The position numbers were made by a program, and so were the translations under genes. The notes below the pieces were generated by a model, which worked only from the letters and a program-made list of their open reading frames with translations, was not told the origin of the DNA and did not search any database. A stretch of 45,502 nt of DNA, taken from a virus. The stretch covers positions 1 to 45,502 of the IMG/VR virus record IMGVR_UViG_3300048444_000267; one strand, given 5' to 3'. This document shows, piece by piece, positions 6,201 to 44,944 of the stretch (within the stretch, counting starts at the first letter, position 1; every line of letters begins with the position of its first letter).

Positions 6201-6735
6201 CAGTACCAGGCGCGCTATCAACACCCCAGACAGACAATTCTCCCACCTCATAAAGCATCACTGAAGGGGTTCTTGAGTCTAACGGTCCTGCACCAATCGG
6301 ACGAATCTCAAGGTCTACACCGTCATCCCAATTTATAAGTTCTGCAGCGCTAAGTGACGTACCTTGATCAGCACCGTATTTGTAGCTGTAGGTTGTTGCC
6401 GTTTGGTTTGTGACTTTTTGAATCGTGTCGGTCTCGCAGGTGTAGCTGCCACCACCATCGACCGCAGTAATCTTGTCGGTCAAAAGATCTCGTTCAGTGC
6501 CGCTGCCTGCACCGTCTTCAGGCTTTAGCACTGTTGGAGTATCAACCGTACCTTTAGGCCCTAGCTCATCCTCAATCTCAGCCCAAGTAATCGTTTCAGT
6601 CTTGGTCCCGTCGTTGATCAGAAACTTGTCAGAGTCGTTTAGCACGGTGCCGTCCTTAAATTGAGCAAAAGTGATGGTTTCGGTCTTGCTGCCGTCATTC
6701 ACTAGCAGCTTGTCGGTGTCGTTTACTGGCATCAC
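3223..6735 (-). CDS. Large cyanophage-type tail fibre / structural protein, 1170 aa
   Basis: The N terminus has a tandem repeat, LLVNDGSKTETITFAQF then FLINDGTKTETITWAEI. The body is beta-rich, with several modules centred on DGGEW, TGGEW and VNDS-type turns and phrases such as LDVLNVGDVV. A fibronectin III-like segment (PTGLALNTEYRVKV) lies near residue 1080. The C terminus is charged and polar (RARNADGTYRGDDPSTPD). The modules and size fit a tail fibre or adhesin that contacts the host. Positions about 4000-5400 are visibly richer in A and T than flanking genes, suggesting that this part was acquired separately. It is the last gene of the structural block and overlaps the preceding gene by 4 nt. 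Confidence 0.75.
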   Translation of the reverse strand: MMPVNDTDKLLVNDGSKTETITFAQFKDGTVLNDSDKFLINDGTKTETITWAEIEDELGPKGTVDTPTVLKPEDGAGSGTERDLLTDKITAVDGGGSYTCETDTIQKVTNQTATTYSYKYGADQGTSLSAAELINWDDGVDLEIRPIGAGPLDSRTPSVMLYEVGELSVWGVDSAPGTDENVSIWESDDGNNWEYKGDFSQFDLSVNDGRGFVSTKNYLKVYGLGGFTVNRWFVYDAKNAIVLSFPTNNNLDCFEIGDVVQGSNFVSNVYPEGGTWQRGAEQAFDGLYTSFGANAGGGKYVYWEPGDLSGHFIFWRYKAQPDSIITVYYNDGSSTDYTFGSSEITTSPDGVTDCVKCDIGQQSNVEKFGVRHGSSQGADWVGVQLDGVTLVTSEEVKVISKKDDEAPYQITVDGGEWAVGSEDATSISLMKWEDQCTGVVFNTVDYPLSKAFDGNISGNYVNGTRSDANGLTCSPRKADGSKFTANQVKLYVFTAGLTENIATINGFGVNDSVDGAAAEKEFTYSLNGAELDSINWRYVENNDYVYLKGIELDGKLLVSPGGSTTVTGKTTSWNSSLTVAGTKDLDVLNVGDVVKMGLAADVPYQPVSDAITSVNPIIYSGNVTNTATLNRPATESFDGDENTWAQTGGQDAVNDYFLTYNFPEGLKINQQLRVWAYSNTAEQFANLTFADGSTERVNIPHSAGEGSAERKWVTLFTGKKTLSKIDVERKKTGSINSQDVIGYAIIEVDGIALVDGQSKLTLAGDTDLAYFREGDEAQSVDNKVPSIETLSLPDKQTGTKFTYSTGLEVTSLECISNAYGGSSFARVIRLEFLDGTKITTDNIGTTYTISGKKYATNTSWEQTLTTGAETQKGAQNAAEKQYRIDFDSPVLIGSIVMFGDYLGDPSSPYHPINLVINDSGNALEPIIVDEVKIVSISKPGDTNHPSITVTGGEWSGTDGSGEATGDTEVTCVSPLKEPTDWTVERIEGTTIDVSHATPDDNAQVWVADDNQAGKEFVINGGKYIDEPLLTSNVELQSSQFATTPADVDGLKEIIWSLNDVEQSAGTLNPYKPTGLALNTEYRVKVKHLAQNIGESQWSQTTTFFTGASRSLKEHYVRQIRELRTALAEAGEPRALSVEDESPRKRARNADGTYRGDDPSTPDVNEAWEDS

Positions 6736-7292
6736 TCACCCTCTAAGTCGATGATGTCCTGCGTGCCAACCATTCCTGCTGAACCAGTCGCAACACCGCT
6801 AAAAGTTGGCTCTTCTACACCAAACTCAGGATCAATTGGCTCCGGCAAAGGCGCAGGCGGTACAGGCTGCGAATAACGAATAATCGTTCTTGCCGGATAG
6901 CAAGACCAATCGTTCAGCGGGGCAACGTTACCAAGCTGAGCTGCACTGGTGCCAAATTCACTGGTGATGCCGCCAACAACACCTAAACCGCCACCGCCAG
7001 TAATGTCTTGTTTTGTTCCTTCATCGTCCAGCTTGACGAACCCAGTGACTTTCGGAACCTCATCAACCGTGATATAGCCCGCATCGTTCGTCAGTTCGCT
7101 GACGTTGTCGCCTTTCTCCAGATAGTTCGACAGGTCTTCTGCCTCGCCTATCTCAAAGACGTTGCCGTCTGCATCCTTTGAATACAGCTTTTGATCTTTG
7201 AGGTTTAGCGCTAACTCAGCAGTCGCTAAATCACCAGCAGCCGGGACCTTGGCCTCAACACTGCTGTTCTTGACTTTGAATGTTTGGGGCAT
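6732..7292 (-). CDS. Structural protein with fibre-adaptor N terminus, 186 aa
   Basis: The N terminus (KVPAAGDLATAELALNLKDQ followed by KLYSKDADG) matches the motif that opens many phage fibre and hyaluronidase-like tail proteins, and resembles the start of the 335-aa protein at 20121-21128. A Pro/Gly-rich region lies near residue 145. It overlaps the following large fibre gene by 4 nt, so the pair is probably translationally coupled, and it may anchor that fibre. A GGCAATCTAG motif lies 38 nt before its start. Confidence 0.65.
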   Translation of the reverse strand: MPQTFKVKNSSVEAKVPAAGDLATAELALNLKDQKLYSKDADGNVFEIGEAEDLSNYLEKGDNVSELTNDAGYITVDEVPKVTGFVKLDDEGTKQDITGGGGLGVVGGITSEFGTSAAQLGNVAPLNDWSCYPARTIIRYSQPVPPAPLPEPIDPEFGVEEPTFSGVATGSAGMVGTQDIIDLEGE

Positions 7293-7330: not shown

Positions 7331-7340
7331 CTAGATTGCC
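7331..7340 (-). promoter_or_regulatory. Late-gene boundary motif GGCAATCTAG
   Basis: This is a sense-strand copy of GGCAANYTAG, 38 nt upstream of the gene starting at 7292. It is one of nine exact matches noted near late-gene starts. It may be a phage late-promoter element; that is an inference from position and recurrence. Confidence 0.5.
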
Positions 7341-7344
7341 CGCG

Positions 7345-7899
7345 CTAAACGAACACCCCGCCGTCTACAGGGTCTGGCCATTCGTCTTGCGTCGTGTCAG
7401 TCGTGAAATCGCCGCCATCCAAAATGGCGAACTTCTCTGTGGCTGGAATGCTCAGGATTGGGTGGAAATAGCCACCGTCAATTTCTTTGACCTCATAATC
7501 CTCCGCAGCAACCCAAGGGTTCCGCAACGTCACCTTGACCTGATTGGTCGGGCCCCATGACTTCGGGACGTTGATCTGTTGGAATTCAGCCCCTGGGTAG
7601 GCCGTCAGGATCAACTGCGTGGGCACCGTCAGGTCTGCGGTGTTGTCCCAACCAACTAGCCAGACCGTCCAGAAATCATCAAGCGGCTCTAACAGGTATT
7701 GCCTGACTGGCGTCTCTTCCGGGTAGCGGATAACGACCGTTTCTAGCCCTGTTGCCTTCGTGCCGGTCGGCAACCTTTCGCTTTCAGCTCGAACAGCAAT
7801 AGCCGGCGTGGTCACGCCATTGGCCAGCGTGTATTGGCCCAGCTCATCTTTGAGCAGCATTTGCAGCGTCCGGCGTATGTCTTTTGCCTTCCTCGCCAC
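7345..7899 (-). CDS. Structural/tail-associated protein, 184 aa
   Basis: I do not recognise this protein with confidence. It starts with a basic helix (MARKAKDIRRTLQMLL), continues as a beta-rich domain, and ends with three copies of a GG-aromatic motif (IDGGYF, LDGGDF, VDGGVF). Similar endings occur in other structural proteins of this genome. It lies between the tail-chaperone pair and the fibre genes and has its own boundary motif 18 nt upstream. A tail-completion or fibre-connector role is possible. Confidence 0.6.
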   Translation of the reverse strand: MARKAKDIRRTLQMLLKDELGQYTLANGVTTPAIAVRAESERLPTGTKATGLETVVIRYPEETPVRQYLLEPLDDFWTVWLVGWDNTADLTVPTQLILTAYPGAEFQQINVPKSWGPTNQVKVTLRNPWVAAEDYEVKEIDGGYFHPILSIPATEKFAILDGGDFTTDTTQDEWPDPVDGGVFV

Positions 7900-7917: not shown

Positions 7918-7927
7918 CTAACTTGCC
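7918..7927 (-). promoter_or_regulatory. Late-gene boundary motif GGCAAGTTAG
   Basis: This is a sense-strand GGCAANYTAG copy, 18 nt upstream of the start at 7899. Its TAG is also the stop codon of the preceding chaperone T-frame. It is a possible late-promoter -10-like element. Confidence 0.55.
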
Positions 7928-8559
7928 AAAACCAGCTCACCATCACTGACAAACGAGCTGTGACCTGTCGAACCCAAACGCACGGAATAGGTCAACAACG
8001 GCCGGTCAAGGTCACGCAAAACCACTTCACCTTTGGGCGGGTACTGCGTTACTGCAAGCAACCCACGCCAGTGTTTGCCCTCAGCCTTGGGCGCCAGCAA
8101 CGCCACGCTGTTGTCGTCACTAATCAATGCCCGCGTCTGCGGCATCCCGCTGGCTCCCTTGGCTGCTTCCAACAGCTGCGGCCATACGCCTACTAAAACG
8201 CTTGGCATTCGCTGCTCACGACGCAGAGACAAGGCAACCAAAGCCGCCTGCGCAGGGAACCCGTCGGACTTGTCCCGTTCGTAGAACAAAGCAAAGTCTT
8301 CCAACGTGAATGGCTTAGGCGAGCGCTTGCTATCACGGTTGATGTTGGCCGTCAGGCTTGCAAGCTGAGCTATCGGCAACTCGAACATCGCCAGCTGCTC
8401 TCGCTTAATGCGCTGCAAATGCTTATACGCCTTTTGCACCTTTGCTCGCAGTTCCCACTTAAACGTGCGACTGCTGAACTCAGTAGGGAAAGCGTGTATT
8501 AACTCCCAACAGATGCCGTCGTAGTCAACCGCTTGCCGTTCTTGCTCGCCTCTGGCTGC
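7918..8559 (-). CDS. Tail assembly chaperone, T frame (gpGT C-terminal part, made by -1 frameshift)
   Basis: This frame is open from 8574 down to 7918, and its upstream part lacks a convincing start. A GTG at 8439 could start a 173-aa protein, but the residues before it also read as real protein (VDYDGICWELIHAF, then FKWELRAKVQKAYK). It lies in the -1 frame relative to the gene at 8499-9080. Slippage at GGGAAAG (8559-8565) would fuse 174 residues of the upstream protein to 213 residues encoded here, giving about 387 residues. This matches the gpG/gpGT arrangement of siphophages, in which the fusion binds the tape measure and tail tube during tail assembly. Confidence 0.75.
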   Translation of the reverse strand, partial: AARGEQERQAVDYDGICWELIHAFPTEFSSRTFKWELRAKVQKAYKHLQRIKREQLAMFELPIAQLASLTANINRDSKRSPKPFTLEDFALFYERDKSDGFPAQAALVALSLRREQRMPSVLVGVWPQLLEAAKGASGMPQTRALISDDNSVALLAPKAEGKHWRGLLAVTQYPPKGEVVLRDLDRPLLTYSVRLGSTGHSSFVSDGELVLAS

Positions 8560-11089: not shown

Positions 11090-11524
11090 TCAAATGTTGT
11101 CGATCAACAGCTGGATCCGATATGTCTGCGTCTGGCCTGCTGCCACTGTCACGCTAGGAGCTTCAACCAAGATCGAATGGGGGTAAGTGCCCGTACCCAC
11201 CTGAATGACGACAGTATCGAACGAAAACCCAGACCCTTCAGCAGTGAAAGCGGCCTCTATGTATGTATTGGCCCCAGCCGAGCCACCAATCTCCCAACGG
11301 TCGTCAGAACCTAAATCAAGCCCACCTGCAGGCAGGCTAGCCACCGTGAAGTCTTCGTAACCGTTAGCCGCTGGCAGCTTCACAGCGTCCCATTCGGTGA
11401 TGGCACTTTCTGCCGTCAATGAGCCGCTGTTCACATGCAAACTGACACGACAGGCCAGCCCCTCGTAAGCCAATGCAGAAATCCGGGCGAACTCTTGAGA
11501 AGACAGCGTTGCGGTAAGTGCCAC
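11090..11524 (-). CDS. Structural protein, 144 aa
   Basis: This small beta-rich protein has a GTG start at 11524 (MALTATLSSQEFARIS) and a C terminus (VTVAAGQTQTYRIQLLIDNI) typical of small virion domains. It is preceded at 18 nt by the boundary motif GGCAAGCTAG and followed after 3 bp by the 625-aa gene. The exact role is unknown; a tail-tip accessory protein is plausible. Confidence 0.6.
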   Translation of the reverse strand: MALTATLSSQEFARISALAYEGLACRVSLHVNSGSLTAESAITEWDAVKLPAANGYEDFTVASLPAGGLDLGSDDRWEIGGSAGANTYIEAAFTAEGSGFSFDTVVIQVGTGTYPHSILVEAPSVTVAAGQTQTYRIQLLIDNI

Positions 11525-11542: not shown

Positions 11543-11552
11543 CTAGCTTGCC
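11543..11552 (-). promoter_or_regulatory. Late-gene boundary motif GGCAAGCTAG
   Basis: This sense-strand copy lies 18 nt upstream of the GTG start at 11524, immediately after the stop of the 1029-aa tail gene. It is identical to the copies before the tape-measure and tail-tube genes. It is a possible late promoter. Confidence 0.6.
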
Positions 11553-15425: not shown

Positions 15426-17369
15426 TCAGCTAAGGGCGTTTTGAACGCTGATAGAGCCATCAGCTTCCAGTCTGGCCTCAACACCAACCGTCCAATCCTT
15501 TTGAGTCAGGCCATCGATTGAATCTTTCAACGCCCTGTAATCCTCTTTCTGCACGTTGCTGCCACCATCAAAGCCGCGAATGATTGTGGTGTTCAGGTCA
15601 GCTAATGCCGCAGTCAGCTTCTCATTGGCAGTGATCAATGCCTTTGACCCATACAGCTCGTCACGGGCTGCATCAATGAATTTTTGGCGCTCATCAAAAC
15701 TGCCAAATCGCTTGCCGCCAATCTGACGGGCTGCTGCGAAGTTGCCTGCTTCTGCAAATTGCTTGACCAGTTCCCGCTTTAACCGGCCTGCTTCGTTCTT
15801 CTGCAGCTGAATGCCTTCCTTGCGGCGCTTGCCAAGCGCACTCCCGCCAAGGAATTGGTTGATGCCTTCGTCTTTGTTGAACAGCTGTTTAGCGCGAGTG
15901 CTACGGGCCTCACCCAATGCATCAGCAGCTTCTAGCGCTGTGTTTCGGGCTTCCTTGTATGCCTCTTTGATTGTTTGCGCCGCTTCCTCTGCAGCCACTA
16001 GCTGAGCGCTAGCAGCATCCTTGGCAGCGTCCGTTGTCGGGTCTTTGAACATGGCAGCTTCCCGCTGCGCCTGGGCCAACTTGATCTGTGAAGCAATGAT
16101 TGCCTGAGTCTGAGGGCCATACAGAACCTTGGCTTGCTGCAGGGCTAACGCCTCAGCACGCTTTGCCTCCTCATTTGATTCGGCAAGCGCTTTAACTCTG
16201 GCTTTCTCTAGATCTAAAAGTCGGGTAGCTTCGTCAATTAAGGCGTCTTTTTTTGCGATTGGGTTTTCTTTCTCTTTCCGGTATTCCTTGATTACTTCTA
16301 ACAATGCCTTCATCGATTTTTCTTCATTCCCAATCGCGCTAGACGTGCCAAAAAGACCTGCCGTCGTACTGCCGTTTGCGTTGTTCAAAGCTGCAGCCCA
16401 CAGCTTTTTCATCTCCTTTTCGGTTAGGCCAGCCTCAATGCGAATGTCTTCAAGCCCTTTGACAAACTCCTTATTGGCATCACCGCCAAAGGTGTTGATC
16501 GGGATGTCGTAAACCTCCTCGGCCAAGTTGCCAAGATTGGCGTTGGACATCGTCTTAGTAAGGATGTTCAGCGCATTGATGACACCAGGAAGCAACACGT
16601 CACCCAGCTGACGCATGAACTCTTCTAGCTGCGCCTGAAACTTGCGGAAGTCAGCCGCTGCACCCGACAGGTCAACATCACTGCCAAGCTGCGCTAAACC
16701 TGTCGTCAGGGCTGGCACAAAGTCCTGCGCACTCAAGCTGCCGGATGAAACAAGATCGATGACCTCTGCCTGCGTCTTGCCTAAGCCAAGGGACAAGGCA
16801 GCCAGCGCTGTTGGCAAGCGCTCGCCTAACTGCTGCCGCAGTTCTTCCATCGACACCACGCCCTTCGATGCTGTCTGAGACAGAGCATTGAAGATCAGCT
16901 TGAGGTCATTGTTACCAAGGCCCAGCGCGACACTGGACTTGGTGATTTGCTCAAACAACCCAAGCTGCTGAGCGATTGGGATGTTTGCCCGTGTTGCCGC
17001 AGCAGTAAACGAACCAAAATTGTCAGTGAGACTTTTAAGGCTGACGCCGTACTCATCAGACGTTCGCCGCAGTTGCGAGAGGATTACTTGCGTTCCGCCC
17101 TTGCCCAGCGTTGCATTCAGCTTGGTGACAGCGCGATCAAAATCCAGCGCCTCTGTAATTGCAGCCTTAAAAAACGCCCCTACGCCTAAAGCGGCCGCAA
17201 TGCCTGCGACTGATTTACCAAACCCCGAGACCGTTTTATTGAGCTTCTCGAACCCTCTTTGCGCTTTCTTTGCTGACCTCTGCGATTGAGCTTCAAACCT
17301 TTTTAGGTCTCTTTCGACTTGCTTGAGGCCCGTCAGGATTAGTTCTAGTTCAACCGATCCCGCTTCCAC
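15426..17369 (-). CDS. Tape measure protein, 647 aa
   Basis: This protein sets tail length and guides DNA entry. The N-terminal 70 residues are basic and helical, followed by a hydrophobic segment (SVAGIAAALGVGAFFKAAI). Residues about 75-230 match the conserved tape-measure domain (TKLNATLGKGG, MEELRQQLGERLPTALAAL). The remainder is a long Ala/Lys/Glu-rich coiled region. The start is GTG at 17369, 15 nt after a GGCAAGCTAG motif. Its length would give a tail of roughly 90-100 nm by the usual rule for siphophages. Oddly, the tail chaperones are not just upstream; two inverted head-tail genes are there instead. Confidence 0.88.
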   Translation of the reverse strand: MEAGSVELELILTGLKQVERDLKRFEAQSQRSAKKAQRGFEKLNKTVSGFGKSVAGIAAALGVGAFFKAAITEALDFDRAVTKLNATLGKGGTQVILSQLRRTSDEYGVSLKSLTDNFGSFTAAATRANIPIAQQLGLFEQITKSSVALGLGNNDLKLIFNALSQTASKGVVSMEELRQQLGERLPTALAALSLGLGKTQAEVIDLVSSGSLSAQDFVPALTTGLAQLGSDVDLSGAAADFRKFQAQLEEFMRQLGDVLLPGVINALNILTKTMSNANLGNLAEEVYDIPINTFGGDANKEFVKGLEDIRIEAGLTEKEMKKLWAAALNNANGSTTAGLFGTSSAIGNEEKSMKALLEVIKEYRKEKENPIAKKDALIDEATRLLDLEKARVKALAESNEEAKRAEALALQQAKVLYGPQTQAIIASQIKLAQAQREAAMFKDPTTDAAKDAASAQLVAAEEAAQTIKEAYKEARNTALEAADALGEARSTRAKQLFNKDEGINQFLGGSALGKRRKEGIQLQKNEAGRLKRELVKQFAEAGNFAAARQIGGKRFGSFDERQKFIDAARDELYGSKALITANEKLTAALADLNTTIIRGFDGGSNVQKEDYRALKDSIDGLTQKDWTVGVEARLEADGSISVQNALS

Positions 17370-17387: not shown

Positions 17388-17416
17388 CTAGCTTGCCGCT
17401 GATTCAGGCAACCTAG
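17388..17416. promoter_or_regulatory. Divergent pair of boundary motifs between tape measure and inverted gene block
   Basis: On the minus strand GGCAAGCTAG (17397-17388) faces the tape-measure gene. On the plus strand GGCAACCTAG (17407-17416) faces the gene at 17434. Together they form an inverted repeat with a 9-nt spacer and one mismatch per arm. Each copy lies 15-17 nt before the start codon it faces. The same motif serving genes on both strands argues that it belongs to the gene start and is a promoter-like element. Confidence 0.65.
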
Positions 17417-17433: not shown

Positions 17434-17874
17434 GTGGTTAGTGCGCTGCTATCGCTTGAAAACTCGGTGGCGGTGTTTGAGGTTCCTACTGCTGCAGTCC
17501 AGGAAGATCCAGAAACGGGCAACGTCATTCCTGTCAATGAAACGCTGAGCTATCGGCTGTATCTGCGTCGCGGCGCATCGACAAGCCCAGGTGCGATGAG
17601 TGGAAGCAACAGCTATGCCAGGGAATTGCCAGGCATCGACCAAGAGGTTGCGGCATACGAGGGTTATTGCATCAGCCCCACGCAGCTCGACAAACGCATC
17701 AGGGCCGGCACCAAGGCCGTGCTGACGTTCGCGGGCGAGCCACCGCATGAATGCACCGTGCAGGATGCCCGTTTTGTCTACGGCTCTACAGGGCTGTTAG
17801 GCGACACGCTGATGAATGTGCTGGGCCACAAGGTCCGGCTGATCTCTTCTGACTACCTGGGGGTGGATGCTTGA
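17434..17874 (+). CDS. Head-tail joining/neck-type protein on the opposite strand, 146 aa
   Basis: This 146-residue protein starts with GTG at 17434 (VSALLSLENSVAVFEVPTAA). It is a beta-rich domain with a conserved-looking core (YRLYLRRGAS, VLTFAGEPPHECTVQDARF). The size and its pairing with an HK97-gp10-like gene suggest a head-tail connector or head-closure protein. It lies on the + strand within a 28-kb minus-strand structural block and has its own boundary motif. Exact family membership is not established. Confidence 0.65.
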   Translation: MVSALLSLENSVAVFEVPTAAVQEDPETGNVIPVNETLSYRLYLRRGASTSPGAMSGSNSYARELPGIDQEVAAYEGYCISPTQLDKRIRAGTKAVLTFAGEPPHECTVQDARFVYGSTGLLGDTLMNVLGHKVRLISSDYLGVDA

Positions 17875-18284
17875 TGGCCCGGAAACTGAAAGTCAACGTC
17901 GACATCAATATGGCCGTTATCAACCGCAAGACCCAAAAGGCTCTGGACGATTACGCCAATGCGTTAGACCCAATTCTTGATCAACAATTCAGGGACGAAA
18001 AATGGAAATGGTGGACTAACACGCCAACACGCAGACGAAACGGGACGCCGGCTGGCAATCCCCGCGACATTATCGATACGGGTACTTTGTTGAACTCCAA
18101 GCAAGGCCCCACAAAAAAGGCGCCTAACAAGCGCCTATGGGTATGGAACACCCCTTATGCCAAATACGTGAAAGATGGCTTTATGACGACACGGGGAAAC
18201 ATTATCCCCGGCCGTGACTGGGCGAAAGAAGCAATGAGAGAACTACCTTTCGCCGGATTCATTGCCAACTACCTCAAGCGGTAG
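17871..18284 (+). CDS. HK97 gp10-like neck/tail-completion protein, 137 aa
   Basis: This protein overlaps the preceding + gene by 4 nt. It starts MARKLKVNVDI (second Met) and has the pattern of gp10-type neck proteins: a helical N-terminal part, a DTGTLLNS turn, an NTPYAKYVKDGF segment (the usual NxxxYAxxxExG region), then PGRDWAKEAM. Such proteins join head and tail. Its 3' end overlaps the end of the convergent tail-tube gene by 11 bp. It is inverted relative to the rest of the structural genes. Confidence 0.7.
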   Translation: MMARKLKVNVDINMAVINRKTQKALDDYANALDPILDQQFRDEKWKWWTNTPTRRRNGTPAGNPRDIIDTGTLLNSKQGPTKKAPNKRLWVWNTPYAKYVKDGFMTTRGNIIPGRDWAKEAMRELPFAGFIANYLKR

Positions 18285-18777
18285 CGGCCTTCGTCCAGAC
18301 ATAAGCCTTGATACCGGTTAGCTGGAAAGTCACCGCAGCCACGTTCCCCGCCTGGATGTCCTCAGAGAAGTTGGTCACATAAGCCACGCCAGCATGAGTC
18401 TCGGGCGTGCTGATAGGCAAGCCAGAGTCGCAATCACCAGACGGTGTAGGTGACTCACGGAACCACTCAATAGCAGCGCCAGTGGCTGAATCCAAGGCCG
18501 CTTGCTTCAGGATCAAGTAACCCGGGTCGAGCATGTCGATGTTCAGAGTGCAGTCGACCGTGTAGCTGTTGCCGGTCACAATGCTTGCCGCCCAGCCGCC
18601 AGATGTGCTGCTGTCGTAGTCATAGGTCTGCACGTCCTCGGTGTCAGACGTTGACTGAATCGCGAAGTTAGTGAGGTTTTTAACCTCAGTCATTGACCCG
18701 GAGGTGGTGGGCACATCGCTGCAGGTGTCACCCTCTGCGATGTAGGTCTTGTACCCAAAAGCAGCGAAAAAGCTCAC
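18274..18777 (-). CDS. Major tail (tube) protein, 167 aa
   Basis: This protein has the hallmarks of a siphophage tail tube subunit: small size, beta-rich sequence, an N terminus with YKTYIAEGDTCSDV and SMTEVKNLTNFAIQ, and a C-terminal FSEDIQAGNVAAVTFQLTGI that resembles tail-tube endings. Its position next to the tape-measure region fits. It starts at 18777, 22 nt after GGCAAGCTAG, which includes the stop codon of the sigma-factor gene. Confidence 0.75.
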   Translation of the reverse strand: MSFFAAFGYKTYIAEGDTCSDVPTTSGSMTEVKNLTNFAIQSTSDTEDVQTYDYDSSTSGGWAASIVTGNSYTVDCTLNIDMLDPGYLILKQAALDSATGAAIEWFRESPTPSGDCDSGLPISTPETHAGVAYVTNFSEDIQAGNVAAVTFQLTGIKAYVWTKAATA

Positions 18778-18799: not shown

Positions 18800-18809
18800 C
18801 TAGCTTGCC
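18800..18809 (-). promoter_or_regulatory. Late-gene boundary motif GGCAAGCTAG
   Basis: This copy lies 22 nt upstream of the tail-tube start. Its TAG is the stop codon of the sigma-like gene. It is identical to the copies before the tape measure and the 144-aa gene. A role as late promoter is inferred. Confidence 0.6.
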
Positions 18810-19369
18810 GCCGCTTCCTCCGCTATCAGCAGGTCCATTGGCCCTGGCCTAGCGCATTCATGCAGCTCAAAGCCTTGAATCTCGTGATTAACGCCAGCCG
18901 TCGCAATCACAGCATCCTTGCAAGCCTGTTTGCTCACCCCAAGGATTTGCGCAACCTCATCAAGGCTGTGGCCATTGTTCAGCAAACGCCGCACCGGCAC
19001 GCTTAACTCTCGCACCTTCAATGGCGCTGCGATCACGAAGTTGTGATCCCGGATGAAGTGTCGAATTTCACCGGTCGCAAACTTGGTAAGGATGGTGCTG
19101 AATTTGCCTTTGCTCGGGTCAAACGCACGACACGACTTCAGAAATGCAACGTCAATACAGCTGAACACGTCCAAGCTGTCCACCATCGGAAACTGACGGG
19201 TCAGCTTGGAACCAAGCAAACGCAGCAGCCCTTGGTGCTCGACATACATCTGCCCCATTCGCCGCTGTTCTTGTCTCGACAACGGGACCTTTAACCAGCC
19301 ACCCTTTGGCGGCTTACGCCGCACTGTGGCGGCATAAGCAAACAGATCTAGCTGTTCAGCTGCGGACAC
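18800..19369 (-). CDS. Phage sigma-70 family factor, apparently without region 4, with sliding-clamp motif
   Basis: This 189-residue protein (GTG start at 19369) has a clear sigma region 2 at residues about 45-112: helices leading to SCRAFDPSKGKFSTILTKF, then TGEIRHFIRDHNF. An extension of the APLKVRELSVPVRR type follows, and one HTH at about 135-155 (SLDEVAQILGVSKQ) looks like region 3. No region 4 for -35 recognition is visible. Residues 6-10 are QLDLF, the consensus peptide that binds the bacterial beta sliding clamp. T4 late sigma factor gp55 also lacks region 4 and binds a clamp, so clamp-coupled late transcription is a reasonable hypothesis. The gene overlaps the preceding connector gene by 14 nt. 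It is unusual to find such a regulator among head-tail genes. The sigma-fold assignment is strong; the clamp role is inference. Confidence 0.82.
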   Translation of the reverse strand: MSAAEQLDLFAYAATVRRKPPKGGWLKVPLSRQEQRRMGQMYVEHQGLLRLLGSKLTRQFPMVDSLDVFSCIDVAFLKSCRAFDPSKGKFSTILTKFATGEIRHFIRDHNFVIAAPLKVRELSVPVRRLLNNGHSLDEVAQILGVSKQACKDAVIATAGVNHEIQGFELHECARPGPMDLLIAEEAAAS

Positions 19370-19952
19370 GTTGCAGCACCCGTGACGTGCCCACTGATGC
19401 CACGCTTGTGGTCAGGCACCCCAACACCTGAGACAGCACCGGCAGCTTCTCCAGCAATGCCACAGACCCTGATGAACCGCTGGCATCGTCACGCCAGACA
19501 ATCTTCATCACGTCCAGCGTCAGTTCCTTCAGGTCGCTGTTCGGGATGCCAGGGACAAGCTCGCCAGGGGTGCTGCTACCGCCACCACTGCCACCTGAGC
19601 CAGGAATGCCGCCAATGATGAACGTTGGATCACCCAGCAAGACATTGGCGACAGCAAACGTGGCCTGTTCAACCTGCGGAGGCGCACCATCTGCGCATTC
19701 GTAGGCGTAATCTCCGCAGACAGCGCCAGAACGTGGCCATTTCAGTGGCTGCTTAGCGTCACACTTCCTGCCGACAAAATCCAAGGTGTCGACCCAGCGC
19801 GTTGCGCTGACCAACGCTTTTTCCTTATCAGACTCTTCAGTGACGTTGCCCCAAGCGATGTCACCCAGTGCCTGACTTGCAAAGGTGTCACCCTCAGCAA
19901 CCGTCAGATAGCTGTTGTCTTCACTTGCTCCGAGTAATGCGGTCAAGCTCAT
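19356..19952 (-). CDS. Head-tail adaptor (DnaT-like/gp15-type), 198 aa
   Basis: The first 75 residues match the phage adaptor family often labelled DnaT-like: YLTVAEGDTFASQAL, then KEKALVSATRWVDTLDF and KQPLKWPRSG. A Gly/Ser-rich linker near residues 115-130 is followed by a C-terminal helical region. Such proteins attach below the portal. It lies downstream of the capsid genes and overlaps its neighbours on both sides. Confidence 0.7.
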   Translation of the reverse strand: MSLTALLGASEDNSYLTVAEGDTFASQALGDIAWGNVTEESDKEKALVSATRWVDTLDFVGRKCDAKQPLKWPRSGAVCGDYAYECADGAPPQVEQATFAVANVLLGDPTFIIGGIPGSGGSGGGSSTPGELVPGIPNSDLKELTLDVMKIVWRDDASGSSGSVALLEKLPVLSQVLGCLTTSVASVGTSRVLQRVRS

Positions 19953-20121
19953 CAGAAAGCTCCAGAACAGCAGCGCGAAGCAACTGGTTTTCTCTTCTCA
20001 GTTTAACTGCCAATTCTGTTGCATCTTTATGGCTCAGCGCCGTGCAAACACGACGCGTCACCTCAAGATCTAACCGTTGCTCCAGTGTCACCGACGGGTT
20101 ACTGCCTGGAACACTAAGCAT
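19921..20121 (-). CDS. Small helical protein, 66 aa
   Basis: I do not recognise this protein. It is mostly helical with a coiled-coil-like C-terminal half (KLRRENQLLRAAVLELSDEL). Its start overlaps the stop of the 335-aa gene by 1 nt, and its end overlaps the adaptor gene by 32 nt. The organisation supports it as a translated gene. The function is unknown. Confidence 0.6.
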   Translation of the reverse strand: MLSVPGSNPSVTLEQRLDLEVTRRVCTALSHKDATELAVKLRRENQLLRAAVLELSDELDRITRSK

Positions 20122-21128
20122 CAGAAAACGCCCCCATCCAGTTCATTGCTAACGGCCCATCCGCCCTTTCCTGCATTCAGCGTGGTGTCCCACTGCATCA
20201 AGTCACCTTGCGTAGTGCCTTCAGGCAACGGGTCAAGATCATCAAGCGCAGTTTTGAGCTGTGATGCCTGGACCGCTACCAGCGCAGCACCGTTTTCAAT
20301 CTGTACGTCAGTGGCAAATTGAACCGCGCCTTTTTGCGATTCGCTGCCGTCTTTGATTTTGACAATGGGCTGACTGTCGCCATTAGTGGCGGTGTCAATT
20401 TCGATCGGGTCTTCGCCTGTGACGGCAGTAACGCCACCCGCGCTAGCAATCAGCGACCACTTGTTGTCATCAGCCGACCAAATGGCCTGCACGCCCTCAA
20501 CAACAGCTTCACCAGTGATGCCCGTCCAAGCGGCAGTGCCATCAGTGCTGTTGCTATAAATCCAGCCGTTTTCGGGGTCAGCTGGTTCAGCACTCGCATC
20601 AGTGAAGTCAGCTTCGCCTTTGTAGACCGTGCCCTGGGCAAGGGTGACGTTTAGCTTTCCGTCGCCTTCGATCGCTAGACCATTGCCGACCTTGATGCCG
20701 CCCAGCACCGACGCTGAGGCTTTAGGCAGCGTGTACTGATTGGCAAGGATTAGGTCAGCGCCAGGGACAACCCCAGGAGTGCCGTTATCAAGCTCATCTT
20801 GCGTGGCAAGCCGAACAACACCCTTGACCGTTGTTGTGGCATCAATGCCCGCCAGCGTTACATCGCCACTAACAGTCGTGGCACTAATGCCGGTGTCCGC
20901 TGTCGCTGAGACGGTTTTGACATAACCGCCGCCGCCTGTACTAGGCAGGAACGCACCTTCGCCGCCAATAGCGATAACGGTTTGCGCTTCCCCGCCGCCT
21001 GCGTCTCCGAGGCCATAGTAGAGAATTTTCGAGGCTTCATTGAACGCGAGTTCAGCACTAGCAAGCGTTGTTGGTGCCCCTACGCCACCGCCGCCAGCAC
21101 GGCGCTTAATCCTGATTTTTTGAGCCAT
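20121..21128 (-). CDS. Virion protein with fibre-type N terminus, 335 aa
   Basis: The N terminus (IKRRAGGGGVGAPTTLASAE then LAFNEASKILYYGLGD) matches the module that opens many phage fibre or hyaluronidase-like proteins. The middle contains phage-tail-repeat-like phrases (SGDVTLAGIDATTTVKGVVR, GGIKVGNGL). It ends ELDGGVF, similar to other structural proteins here. It lies between the capsid and connector genes, so it may be a head fibre or decoration protein instead of a tail fibre. GGCAAATTAG lies 20 nt upstream. Confidence 0.65.
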   Translation of the reverse strand: MAQKIRIKRRAGGGGVGAPTTLASAELAFNEASKILYYGLGDAGGGEAQTVIAIGGEGAFLPSTGGGGYVKTVSATADTGISATTVSGDVTLAGIDATTTVKGVVRLATQDELDNGTPGVVPGADLILANQYTLPKASASVLGGIKVGNGLAIEGDGKLNVTLAQGTVYKGEADFTDASAEPADPENGWIYSNSTDGTAAWTGITGEAVVEGVQAIWSADDNKWSLIASAGGVTAVTGEDPIEIDTATNGDSQPIVKIKDGSESQKGAVQFATDVQIENGAALVAVQASQLKTALDDLDPLPEGTTQGDLMQWDTTLNAGKGGWAVSNELDGGVF

Positions 21129-21148: not shown

Positions 21149-21158
21149 CTAATTTGCC
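21149..21158 (-). promoter_or_regulatory. Late-gene boundary motif GGCAAATTAG
   Basis: This sense-strand copy of GGCAANYTAG lies 20 nt before the start at 21128 and is followed by GCCAAAG, as is the copy at 21428-21437. It may be a late promoter. Confidence 0.6.
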
Positions 21159-21427: not shown

Positions 21428-21437
21428 CTAGGTTGCC
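21428..21437 (-). promoter_or_regulatory. Late-gene boundary motif GGCAACCTAG
   Basis: This copy lies 17 nt upstream of the start at 21410, immediately after the stop of the 45-aa gene. It is one of nine copies of GGCAANYTAG in this orientation. Confidence 0.6.
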
Positions 21438-27542: not shown

Positions 27543-29717
27543 TCAGAAAAGTCCTGAGATTGTGATGTAGTAAGGCCCCGCGCCATTAACGAAGTTGCCT
27601 CCATTCAATGCAGTCTTGGAAGAGACATAGCAAAGAGCATGGTCAGGATGAAAATCAATCCTGCTAATAGTGCCTGTTACTTTCATTTTCCATGCGTTAT
27701 TTGATACTTCCCAAATAGTGAAAGGTATTTTGTCGTTATACCTTACGTCTTCACGGAGCGTATTAGTTCCCCAAGCGATGCCATCTCTATCTGTAGTGGA
27801 AAGCTCTAAGTGCTGATTATTGGTATTGTTATTTGTCCACCATTGAAAATACCCATTCGGTAAATTAACTATGCTGAGAAAAAACTTAAGGCCAGGTGGT
27901 CTAGATGCGGAGATGCCAAAACCACTGCCGCCACTAGGCTTAGCATCTACATAAGCTTTTGTTGCTGCGTGATGTGATTGGGTGGGCTCTTTGAGGTTGT
28001 AAACGCCAAGCTCGCCAGCCTTGATTTGTAGCAGCGTTTTATTGCTGCCTGAAGCGTTCTGCTGTCTAACTTTCCAGTCAGTGTCATTAGCAAGATCAGA
28101 GGCTCCAGAATTGTTTAGTTTTCCTGCCAGACCTGTATCGACGTAGTCCTTGCTGACGCCCGCCTCGTTCTGCGGGTAGATATAAACCTCCTGAGTTTGA
28201 TCTACTTCAAAGTCGTTAGTGCCGCTCAGGTATTCAACAGTCAGGGCATTTGAATCGCCGGACAAGATCCGGTAACGACTTACTTCACCAACATTTGCCA
28301 GCGCTACCGCTTGAACCAACTCAACGATGTCACCAACATTGCATGGCTTGATTGGCTGCCCGTTCAAGTCAAACGGCGCAAAGCTCATTGCCTGCACATC
28401 CGCTGCAACAGCGTTGTTGACATACAGCTCCCCATTACGCCCAGCCGCACCAATGTTGGTTGCCGTAATTTTGTATCGGGCAACGCTGCCCTTGGTGACT
28501 TGCAATTCTTCAAGAGCAAGCTCAATTTTGCGTTGTTCAATTTCACCCGCCTGCACGCGGTCGAGCAAATCGTTTTGAACAACCAACGCAGCATCAATCG
28601 TGGCATTGATGCCATCAAGGCTTACAGGCGGCGCAGCAGGCACCCATGCCCCACCTTCATAGATGTAAAGGGTCAGTTCATCGTCTTCAGTGTCAAACCA
28701 AAGCGAACCGGTCTGTGGCGTCAGCGGTGGCTTGTCCTGAACACTGACAATCCCGCCGTTGACGTTGATCCACTGCTTCTTAGGCGCGTTGTACTTGTAG
28801 GTGACCTGAGTAAGCGGGTTGATCCACTCCTCGCCATCAACAGCCTTCGGATAAACAACCGGCACTGATGCAGCCTGAGTGCCAGGCACCCCGGTCACAC
28901 CAGGGATGCAAATCACCCAAACGATTTTCTTGCTTGAATCTTTGGTCGCTACATAAAGCGCCAGCTGATCGCTATCAAACCAAAGGTCACCAGGCCTGAC
29001 TGGTTTGTTGTTGTTGCCGTTATCTGGCGGGTCAAGATCAATGATGACCGGCGGTACATCAACACCACCGCCACCACTCCCACTGCCACCAACAGCAGTT
29101 TGTTGTTGACCAAGCTGCGAAACACGCAGTTCAGCAAGCTTTGTCCAGCTGCCTGAGGCTTTCTTGTAAAAGCCAAAGCCAGCTGATGACAGATCAATCC
29201 AGTGGTCGGCATCTACGCCATCTTCCTGCGCAGGCGGACGAGGCCCAGACAAAACTGCAGCGCCGTCCACGCCTGACTGACCAGGAAGGCCAACAGGACC
29301 GCGCTCACCAGTCGCACCCACAGGCCCCACAACGCGGCCAACGTCAATAACCGAGCCATCAGTAAGGCCTAGGAGAAGGTGACCGTTTGAGTTGACAATG
29401 CCCGTGTCTACTGATGTTCCAGGGGTGCCGGGAAGACCGTCGCGACCGTCCAGGCCCGACTTTCCGTTTCGGCCAGGGCTTCCCGCAGGGCCAGGCTCAC
29501 CCTTTGGTCCTTGTGCACCAGCCGGACCAACTGCGCCGTCTTGAGCAGCGGGGAGCGCGATCCTTTTGAAATTGCCATCCGTAAGGCGAAGGGTGAAGCC
29601 AGTGTCATCAAATTGCTCAATGGCTGAGATCCCAACCCCAGCAGGGCCAGGCTCTCCCTTTTGCTTTTGTTGAGCCTTTTCGACAAGCTCTAGAAGTTCT
29701 AGGTCTGACATAGCCAT
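27543..29717 (-). CDS. Collagen-like tail fibre, 724 aa
   Basis: After a short helix (SDLELLELVEKAQQKQ) come Gly-X-Y collagen-like runs at residues about 20-30, 62-100 and 130-155 (PAGAQGPKGEPGPAGSPGRN, GERGPVGLPGQSGVDG). The middle repeats the phrase GSLWFDTEDDELTLYIYEGG and similar, a fibre module. The C-terminal part has NLKEPTQSHHAATKAYVDAK, a typical tail-fibre repeat. It ends ITISGLF. It overlaps the portal gene stop by 1 nt. It is probably a long, flexible host-contact fibre. Confidence 0.72.
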   Translation of the reverse strand: MAMSDLELLELVEKAQQKQKGEPGPAGVGISAIEQFDDTGFTLRLTDGNFKRIALPAAQDGAVGPAGAQGPKGEPGPAGSPGRNGKSGLDGRDGLPGTPGTSVDTGIVNSNGHLLLGLTDGSVIDVGRVVGPVGATGERGPVGLPGQSGVDGAAVLSGPRPPAQEDGVDADHWIDLSSAGFGFYKKASGSWTKLAELRVSQLGQQQTAVGGSGSGGGGVDVPPVIIDLDPPDNGNNNKPVRPGDLWFDSDQLALYVATKDSSKKIVWVICIPGVTGVPGTQAASVPVVYPKAVDGEEWINPLTQVTYKYNAPKKQWINVNGGIVSVQDKPPLTPQTGSLWFDTEDDELTLYIYEGGAWVPAAPPVSLDGINATIDAALVVQNDLLDRVQAGEIEQRKIELALEELQVTKGSVARYKITATNIGAAGRNGELYVNNAVAADVQAMSFAPFDLNGQPIKPCNVGDIVELVQAVALANVGEVSRYRILSGDSNALTVEYLSGTNDFEVDQTQEVYIYPQNEAGVSKDYVDTGLAGKLNNSGASDLANDTDWKVRQQNASGSNKTLLQIKAGELGVYNLKEPTQSHHAATKAYVDAKPSGGSGFGISASRPPGLKFFLSIVNLPNGYFQWWTNNNTNNQHLELSTTDRDGIAWGTNTLREDVRYNDKIPFTIWEVSNNAWKMKVTGTISRIDFHPDHALCYVSSKTALNGGNFVNGAGPYYITISGLF

Positions 29718-31330
29718 CAGTTAGTGCCCTCGTCAGACTCAGAATCTTCAGCCAGTCTACGCAACCTTTTCAGCACCTCTTGGCGAATTTCACTGTCACC
29801 GCCTTCCTCATCGGGGGGTGCATCACCACCGGCTTCTATCTCCTCTTCGGGAACATTGCCGCCAGCGGCGGATAGATCAAGACCAGCAAGCTTGTCCTGT
29901 TCGATCAGCTCAATCTCAGCGTCGATGTCCATCTCTTCGCTAAGCACTTCACCGCGCTGCAGTGTGCTCAGAAGCGTCTCATGACTGATCGCGCCGTTAG
30001 TCCAGAGGTTCAGGTATTGCTGCACCTGAGCGCCATCTAGCTGCTGCAGATCGAAGTCACGCGCGATAGCAACGATTGGCGTCTCAATGCCAACGAATGC
30101 CCCTGCCATATCGATGGCATTCTGCAGGCAACGTTCTAGGTCTTGCGCCACGACCGACAACATGGAGTCCGAATCGCTCCGGTCCATTGCCTTAGCTGCT
30201 GCAGTCTCAGCGGCAAAGGTCTGATTGAAAAGCGTGGAGATGCCTAAGCCTCTCATCTGCTGCTCAATCTCGGTGATGAATGCTTGCTGGGCTGCGAAGG
30301 CTTGGCTTGCAGGCTCGACATACTTGCAATCCGAATCTGGCCCCATGACAAGAGCAGAGTTGGCACTTAAAGCAATCTCGTTGTCGGTGTCATCCCATCC
30401 GGTCAGGACAAGGATTGGCATTGCCGCAACGTGAAGCGAAAATTGCTGATCGGCCTGCCTCTGACTGTGCAATATGTTCAGCGAGGCAATAGGCAGCAGC
30501 GGCGGCTTACTCATTAGCTCGCTCACCTTGTTGCTGTAGGTCACCGCCAAAGGGATGACAGGCAGGCTGGTCTCGCCACTTTGATGCTGATACCAACCGC
30601 CCTCACCTTTACGCCAAATTGACCACGAACCCTGTTCAAGGATCCGAATCTGCCTGATTGTTTGCTCGCCAAATAGACCTAGCGGCTCGGTGACATATTC
30701 ATTGATTCTGATTTGGTTGATCGGTGCCAAGGGCGAGTCAGCTTCCTTGCGAAAGCCAAGGATTTGATCAGCCCTGACTTCCAGCAAATAAGGCCGCAGC
30801 CCTAGCTGACGTTCAACCTGCAAGTTCGGTGCCGGCTCGGTGCTCGGATAATCCACGAGCACAGCGCTGTGGCCTAGAAGCAAGCTATTAAGGACAACAC
30901 GACGGGCAAACGCGTCAAGATCAGTGCCGTAGCCGTCAACGTCTTTGACCCAAGAAGTAAAAAATTCATCAACCTCGCCGCCCTCTTCTCGCGGTTGCAA
31001 TTGAATGGGCTTGCGCATGATTAGCCCGGCTGCCTGCTCAGCGATGCGCGTCAAAAACGGCGACAGGACGGCATGGCTTACACGGCGCTTCCAGGCCTCA
31101 GGTGTTTCTTTTTGCTCTTGCGGCAGAAGTGTTGCAGCGTTCTCCCTAAACGCCTGAGTGCCGCCCATGCAGACAAGCATTGGCTGCCAGCTTTCACTTT
31201 GCTGCAGGTAAGCACCCGACAGCCAGCTGGGGTCATTTCCTGCCTTGGTGTCTTCGTTCGGTATCTCGTCCGGCGGACCATTGCCGGGTGAAAAGACGCC
31301 TGATGGATACGGGCGGGAAGTATCAGCCAA
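29717..31330 (-). CDS. Portal protein (DUF4055-type), 537 aa
   Basis: This protein forms the DNA gate of the capsid. The N-terminal part contains CMGGTQAFRENAATLLPQEQ and RVSHAVLSPFLTRIAEQAAG followed by LIMRKPI, the pattern of DUF4055 phage portal proteins. The helical C-terminal part is acidic (PEEEIEAGGDAPPDEEGGDS). The start is TTG at 31330, with GAAGGA upstream and a GGCAACTTAG motif 29 nt before it. The nblA gene runs divergently from this start. Three fibre genes follow instead of the usual head gene. Confidence 0.82.
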   Translation of the reverse strand: MADTSRPYPSGVFSPGNGPPDEIPNEDTKAGNDPSWLSGAYLQQSESWQPMLVCMGGTQAFRENAATLLPQEQKETPEAWKRRVSHAVLSPFLTRIAEQAAGLIMRKPIQLQPREEGGEVDEFFTSWVKDVDGYGTDLDAFARRVVLNSLLLGHSAVLVDYPSTEPAPNLQVERQLGLRPYLLEVRADQILGFRKEADSPLAPINQIRINEYVTEPLGLFGEQTIRQIRILEQGSWSIWRKGEGGWYQHQSGETSLPVIPLAVTYSNKVSELMSKPPLLPIASLNILHSQRQADQQFSLHVAAMPILVLTGWDDTDNEIALSANSALVMGPDSDCKYVEPASQAFAAQQAFITEIEQQMRGLGISTLFNQTFAAETAAAKAMDRSDSDSMLSVVAQDLERCLQNAIDMAGAFVGIETPIVAIARDFDLQQLDGAQVQQYLNLWTNGAISHETLLSTLQRGEVLSEEMDIDAEIELIEQDKLAGLDLSAAGGNVPEEEIEAGGDAPPDEEGGDSEIRQEVLKRLRRLAEDSESDEGTN

Positions 31331-31359: not shown

Positions 31360-31369
31360 CTAAGTTGCC
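31360..31369 (-). promoter_or_regulatory. Late-gene boundary motif GGCAACTTAG
   Basis: This sense-strand copy of GGCAANYTAG lies 29 nt upstream of the portal TTG start. If nblA starts at 31378 the motif lies just upstream of it on the other strand. It is a possible late promoter for the portal-fibre-head operon. Confidence 0.5.
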
Positions 31370-44157: not shown

Positions 44158-44389
44158 AGGCGAGAGCTATCACGCCTACATGCGCCGGCTGTATCGCAAG
44201 CCATTGAACCGTGGAATCACTGCGGTTCATAAGCCCAACGATCAGACCGACATCAAAGAGCTGTGGTCTTTTCGGCCTCCAACTGATCTAACCAAAGCTG
44301 CTTACAAATTCATGCGAAAGCACGAGATGAGCATCACCACTTATCTCACCTTCGCAATGCACACCCTTCACAACAAGAAAAATGGCTGA
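44126..44389 (+). CDS. Hypothetical protein, 87 aa
   Basis: The product is basic with a YHAYMRRLYRKPLNRGITAV stretch and a C-terminal helix (YLTFAMHTLHNKKNG). It overlaps the previous frame by 32 nt and the next by 8 nt. It may bind nucleic acid; no family is recognised. Confidence 0.58.
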   Translation: MEPTGSQQRFEGESYHAYMRRLYRKPLNRGITAVHKPNDQTDIKELWSFRPPTDLTKAAYKFMRKHEMSITTYLTFAMHTLHNKKNG

Positions 44390-44753
44390 TTTCAAAGGCG
44401 CCTTGCCCTCCGTTATCAAATGGAGCGTTGGCGAAAACAAGTACGACGAAGACGGTTCAAACCCAAAGAGCTTGAGCCTGTTTATTCCTGCTGCATCCAT
44501 TGATGCCCTGGCAGCTCACCTGTCTGCAATGGCCGCTGATTCTGCAAAGCTGAAAACCGGCAAGATCTGGGACTACAGCAAAAACGAAGAGGTCGAAGTC
44601 AGCGGCGTGTATCTAAACGCCAAAGGCAAGTCTGGAGAGTATGGCGACTTCGGGAACATCAATCCTGCGGCGCTAGGCAATGCGCCTACGCAGTCGCACG
44701 GAAGGCATAACGAAGCTGCCCTGGTTCCTGCTGACAACGAACTGCCGTTCTGA
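44382..44753 (+). CDS. SSB-like protein with acidic C-terminal tip, 123 aa
   Basis: The N-terminal part is a compact beta-rich domain (LPSVIKWSVGENKYDEDG, SKNEEVEVSGVYLNAKGK). The C-terminal linker ends DNELPF, very like the acidic DDDIPF tip through which bacterial single-strand binding proteins recruit partners. Its context after the annealing protein and nuclease supports an ssDNA-binding role. The fold itself is not proven by eye. A TACG-motif copy lies in the linker (44680-44693). Confidence 0.6.
   Translation: MADFKGALPSVIKWSVGENKYDEDGSNPKSLSLFIPAASIDALAAHLSAMAADSAKLKTGKIWDYSKNEEVEVSGVYLNAKGKSGEYGDFGNINPAALGNAPTQSHGRHNEAALVPADNELPF
44680..44693 (+). promoter_or_regulatory. Copy of the TACG motif
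   Basis: ATGCGCCTACGCAG is identical to the copy at 39210. It is encoded within the linker of the SSB-like gene (APTQ), 62 nt before the next start. Confidence 0.4.
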
Positions 44754-44755
44754 CC

Positions 44756-44944
44756 ATGGCTCGCCCCCGCATCAAGTGCCGGCAGTGCGCCCAGTTCCAT
44801 AAGAACCGTTGCCAGCTGGACGTGCCTGAGTGCAAAGGGGCCAACTCAATTGCGGCGGAGGAATGCTCAATGTTCCTCTCGCCGTCCGGAATACCCGCAT
44901 TCTTGATCGAAGATGATGAACAACAACAGCTCGCGCTGTTCTGA
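44756..44944 (+). CDS. Small Cys-rich zinc-binding protein with C-terminal clamp motif, 62 aa
   Basis: The N-terminal half carries several Cys/His (CRQCAQFHKNRC, then C26 and C37) and likely binds zinc. It ends EDDEQQQLALF, where QLALF is a good match to the beta sliding-clamp binding peptide at the extreme C terminus. T4 late co-activator gp33 and sigma gp55 also carry C-terminal clamp motifs, so this could be a partner of the phage sigma factor. That comparison is inference. Confidence 0.6.
   Translation: MARPRIKCRQCAQFHKNRCQLDVPECKGANSIAAEECSMFLSPSGIPAFLIEDDEQQQLALF

Follow-up and report, generated by a model that had tools for sequence, protein, structure and literature searches.

A sigma factor without region 4 and with a predicted clamp-binding peptide among the head–tail genes of an uncultured, probably cyanobacterial phage

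The sigma factor gene and its relatives

The window, by which we mean the whole stretch of 45,502 nucleotides analysed here, carries on its minus strand (19369 to 18800) an open reading frame that starts with GTG and encodes a sigma factor of 189 aa. The gene was described earlier as lying amid head–tail genes of a siphovirus. It indeed adjoins a head–tail adaptor gene (19356–19952, PHROG 477) on one side and the major tail protein gene (18274–18777) on the other, and the tape-measure and tail genes found in the window are consistent with the siphovirus label. The parts of the gene are:

18800–19369, minus strand: sigma factor gene, 189 aa, with regions 2 and 3 and without region 4 (ORF, Pfam, model, profile alignments)
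19340–19354, minus strand: codons of QLDLF (residues 6–10), the predicted clamp-binding peptide (sequence and relatives); they are not overlapped by the upstream gene, which ends with its stop codon at 19356–19358
19040–19276, minus strand: sigma region 2, residues 32–110 (Pfam, AlphaFold2, fold match)
18899–19021, minus strand: three-helix region 3 domain holding a helix-turn-helix (HTH), residues 117–157 (AlphaFold2, profile alignments)

The product matches the PHROG sigma families 351 and 36098 and scores above the curated cut-off of Pfam Sigma70_r2 (E 2.2e-6), which places it in the sigma-70 family. Both stretches of region 2 cited by the sequence-only reading, FDPSKGKFSTILTKF and GEIRHFIRDHNF, are found in it. 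Structure prediction, which that reading had proposed as a check, returned the fold of sigma domain 2: the AlphaFold2 model, built from 26 sequences (mean pLDDT 79, with low confidence in the tail, residues 1–16), consists of the tail, sigma domain 2, the three-helix domain and a C-terminal helix, and VIA-align superposed it on sigma domain 2 over 77 residues (Z 9.7, 2.1 A). Together with the Pfam match, this bears out the claim of a clear region 2. By structural alignment the chain follows the order of E. coli sigma70, region 2 and then region 3; the arrangement of the two domains in the model is uncertain because two-domain alignments give a high rmsd.

The single further HTH noted after region 2 is present and corresponds to region 3. 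Profile alignment with a domain-annotated cyanophage sigma puts it at residues ~146–188 (Pfam region 3, 146–214) and stops short of region 4 of that protein (234–283); alignments with SigB, SigA and SigF likewise stop before region 4. An assignment of the HTH to region 4 was thereby ruled out, and the 189 residues lack the region with which full-length sigma-70 factors recognise a −35 element, as had been proposed. Sigma70_r4 was found nowhere else in the window either. That the gene encodes a sigma factor with regions 2 and 3 is well supported.

Scans of viral contigs gave 189 stretches with the sigma, many of them overlapping on the same contigs, and about 100 distinct proteins; none was confirmed by the scan of bacterial genomes. 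Among isolates, the closest for the sigma are S-CRES1 and PSS2; for the terminase they are S-H1, MED4-184 and KBS-S-2A, and for the portal S-2L. Since all of these are cyanophages, this family of uncultured viruses probably has cyanobacterial hosts. The SigF-like sigmas of S-CRES1, S-CRES3, S-CBS2 and PSS2 (phrog_36098, phrog_351) are the nearest isolated homologues; that of S-CRES1 aligns with the window sigma over regions 2–3 with an hhalign probability of 97.5. They share ~29% identity with the window sigma but have a longer C terminus, and their genes adjoin the terminase gene, whereas the window gene lies inside the head–tail genes.

A single-element motif before virion genes

The GGCAANYTAG sites pointed out earlier exceed expectation clearly, with nine in the window against 0.67 expected. 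Every one precedes a gene on its own strand, 17–38 nt before the start, and the recognised genes downstream include those of the portal, major tail and tape measure proteins:

18800–18809, minus strand: site GGCAAGCTAG, which overlaps the stop codon of the sigma gene and precedes the major tail protein gene (18274–18777) by 22 nt
17388–17397, minus strand: motif before the tape measure gene (15426–17369)
17407–17416, plus strand: divergent motif before an inverted two-gene island (17434–18284)
21149–21158, minus strand: motif before gene 20121–21128, upstream of the head–tail adaptor and sigma genes
21428–21437, minus strand: motif with an ATG 17 nt downstream
31360–31369, minus strand: motif before the portal gene (29717–31330)
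11543–11552, minus strand: motif before gene 11090–11524
7918–7927, minus strand: motif before gene 7345–7899
7331–7340, minus strand: motif before gene 6732–7292

No copy was found in the rightward gene block at 35.9–45.5 kb of the window. Across 88 sigma loci we counted 189 copies, compared with 12.4 for scrambled motifs, and an ORF starts 3–38 nt downstream (median 18) at 49 of 61 non-redundant sites, as opposed to 7% of random positions. These 61 sites share an A-rich stretch 4–7 nt downstream of the motif, and upstream, out to −70, they show no strongly conserved position that could be a −35 element. If position 17 is taken as the transcription start, the motif would fall at −16 to −7, as an extended −10 element, in keeping with a protein that has regions 2 and 3 only.

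Such a tight distance to the start codon is also what an mRNA element would show, and the motif might thus be a site close to gene starts that acts at the RNA level or binds a host factor, and not the promoter of the window sigma. We think this highly improbable. A divergent, oppositely oriented pair of sites serves the inverted gene island, and the oppositely oriented copy is conserved in relatives; the A-rich region lies at the distance from a −10 element where a start is expected; and four related cyanophages without the sigma have 0 or 1 copies, which is chance level. In addition, the motif varies with the clade of the sigma, being GGGAA in the QPSLDL clade, AGCAA in the L182 clade, and GGTAA or GGAAA in parts of the RPRTGYL clade. 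A reading of the motif by the sigma is best supported by this co-variation, which is confounded with descent. In S-CRES1, enrichment of the motif is weak at most. Altogether, the comparison of loci makes a strong case for GGCAANYTAG as the promoter of the window sigma, and a sigma with both a clamp-type peptide (see below) and a matching promoter before virion genes is suggestive of late genes that are switched on through replication.

Scanning for the motif alone turned up sigma genes overlooked by the first protein scan. A double-motif scan also gave long contigs without a sigma, carrying the palindrome only or the palindrome plus one or two sites, and many of these are probably chance palindromes. 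Contigs of the L025 type look like real family members whose sigma lies outside the fragment or is too divergent; GGCAAACTAG sites ~18 nt before gene starts occur, with no sigma found, in L025, L029, L037, L050, L051, L060 and L061. At two places (L007, 793–802; L011, 5628–5637) a terminator-like hairpin with a T run follows a canonical motif within ~30 nt, which is odd for a promoter.

A clamp-type peptide in the N-terminal tail

The translation has QLDLF at residues 6–10, as reported from the sequence alone, where it was called the consensus clamp peptide. It fits the published bacterial clamp-binding consensus QL[S/D]LF exactly (PMC12309361), and the variants in the sigma family fit the wider form QxxLF (PMC12309361, PMC4549789); the motif is known from polymerases, repair proteins and transposases. 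In the literature searched, we found no sigma factor with a clamp-binding motif outside the T4 system.

In this family the tail ahead of the conserved core evolves rapidly, and the short peptide is retained, with its anchor positions kept as the rest of the tail varies. It takes the forms QLDLF, QLNLF, QLQLF, QLSLF, QLSLL, QLSFF, QLALF, QLCLF, QMDLF, QLNMF, QLTMF and QLLLF, and one clade has QPSLDL, which is hexapeptide-like, or QPSLDF. Clustering at 90% identity gives 43 clusters, of which 19 show a relaxed pattern, Q[LM]x[LMF][FL], fixed after the sequences were seen (0.07 expected from shuffled sigma tails); at 75% identity the pattern occurs in 10 of 21 clusters (0.04 expected). The published patterns hold too: QLxLF is present in 10 of the 43 clusters and QxxLF in 11, with 0.007 and 0.11 expected. 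The clusters are related by descent, so these counts are not independent. Just four of 2284 other ORFs show the relaxed motif within 30 residues of the N terminus. A chance match of QLDLF was ruled out by the shuffled tails and this rarity, and a DNA-level element by the codons of the peptide, which vary synonymously among the homologues. In the sigma tree, every one of the 15 members of one deep half has the peptide, as do three clades within the other half; it thus spans both halves with few changes. The comparison therefore shows that the peptide is conserved across divergent sigma clades, beyond chance.

The derived RPRTGYL clade, about 16 of the 43 clusters, keeps the sigma and the promoter and lacks the peptide, and L004 and L006, which are near the window sigma, likewise have sigma and promoter without it. 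Clamp coupling would therefore not be essential for a sigma of this kind, and it is not universal in the family. The RPRTGYL clade also speaks for an ordinary, clamp-free sigma without region 4 that reads the single-element promoter, with QLxLF binding another partner such as RNA polymerase. A precedent is phiEco32 gp36: this sigma, too, is without region 4 and works from one-part middle and late promoters with starts 6–8 bp downstream, and no clamp is mentioned for it (PMC8948821). The likeness of gp36 to the window sigma, compared by description only, covers the missing region 4 and the one-part promoters, and its promoter, tAATGTAtA, is unlike GGCAANYTAG. We regard a clamp-free sigma as a serious but rather unlikely alternative: the peptide is close to the clamp consensus, the hexapeptide-like QPSLDL included, and its anchors alone are kept in a changing tail.

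Comparison with T4 gp55 and a possible clamp tether

The late sigma gp55 of phage T4 is activated through the clamp gp45 (PMC2988020, PMC7892883), and the window sigma is similar to it in having sigma domain 2 without region 4, single-element late promoters without a −35 element, and, as predicted here, a short clamp-binding peptide on a flexible tail. The promoter sequence differs from that of T4, the predicted peptide is N-terminal whereas the clamp epitope of gp55 is C-terminal, and, unlike gp55, the window sigma has a region 3 domain. Membership of the gp55 family (phrog_234) was ruled out, with an hhalign probability of 0.1 and assignment to different PHROG families; gp55 was not listed in the fold search, which is uninformative either way. 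The absence of detectable homology points to an independent origin and agrees with the independent evolution put forward earlier. No gp33-like coactivator was identified, and no ORF resembling region 4 was seen in the window.

T4 encodes its own clamp, and here no DnaN-type phage clamp was found. A search directed at bacterial-type (DnaN) clamps found no such gene in the window, and none in 23 related contigs, 21–46 kb long, although records may be incomplete; the clamp of S-H1, the positive control, was found by the same search. The host clamp DnaN is hence the likely partner. No polymerase turned up among the window ORFs of at least 390 aa, with which a 373-aa major head protein was also scanned. 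The phage itself therefore probably depends on the replisome and clamp of its host.

These results lead us to consider it fairly probable that the window sigma is a late sigma of independent origin, working like gp55 and tethered through its N terminus to host DnaN. It would be the late sigma of the phage, with regions 2 and 3 binding host RNA polymerase and reading the single extended −10-type element GGCAANYTAG before virion genes, without −35 recognition because region 4 is missing. The flexible N-terminal tail with QLDLF would tether the holoenzyme to host DnaN left on newly replicated phage DNA; this tether would supply the missing recruitment energy and would couple late transcription to replication, as gp55 does with gp45. 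The sequence-only reading had proposed clamp-coupled late transcription through host DnaN, which is supported at each step that sequence can test; reading of the motif by this very sigma, DnaN binding, activation and the coupling to replication are what we infer.

The clamp peptide of a late sigma might otherwise act on the host, by occupying or sequestering DnaN or by placing the sigma at forks, with no activation of transcription. Clamp binders that block replication do exist, for example SocB (PMC9690074), but a role of this kind is very unlikely here: both the position of the gene amid virion genes and the promoter that varies with it argue for transcription, and the phage, whose large ORFs include no DNA polymerase, probably depends on the host clamp for itself.

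Only T4-related phages are described as activating transcription through a sliding clamp (PMC2988020, PMC9690074), and the literature we searched gave no description of this beyond T4-type phages. On balance, we think it more likely than not that the window sigma belongs to a second, independently evolved clamp-activated system, made up of a phage sigma, the host clamp and an N-terminal tether, in a widespread group of uncultured phages. If true, such an unrelated case with a host clamp would show that clamp activation is a general way of linking late genes to replication and would account for how a sigma without region 4 locates one-part promoters. The sigma and promoter variants that occur naturally in the family also lend themselves to the study of −10 recognition.

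Further proteins may carry clamp peptides:

44756–44944, plus strand: possible second clamp-tethered protein, 62 aa, cysteine-rich, with C-terminal QLALF
L225 12308–13042, L233 1507–2241 and L232 1456–2076: distant cyanophage sigmas with C-terminal QGSLF

Two diverged homologues of the 62-aa protein, in L239 and L238, end in QLALF and QMALFD; it is a candidate coactivator, or possibly a replication factor. The distant sigmas listed are those of S-CRES1 and S-CRES3, which end in QGSLF, and that of S-CBS2, where the annotated protein stops early and another frame extends the homology and ends in the same peptide. The presence of the motif at the C terminus in S-CRES-type sigmas suggests more than one origin or relocation of clamp coupling among cyanophage sigmas.

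We regarded QLAMF in the product of 7918–8439 as incidental, because this protein bears a weak resemblance to minor tail protein T. A 123-aa protein (44382–44753, plus strand) with no family matches ends in DNELPF, similar to the acidic tip of single-strand DNA-binding proteins.
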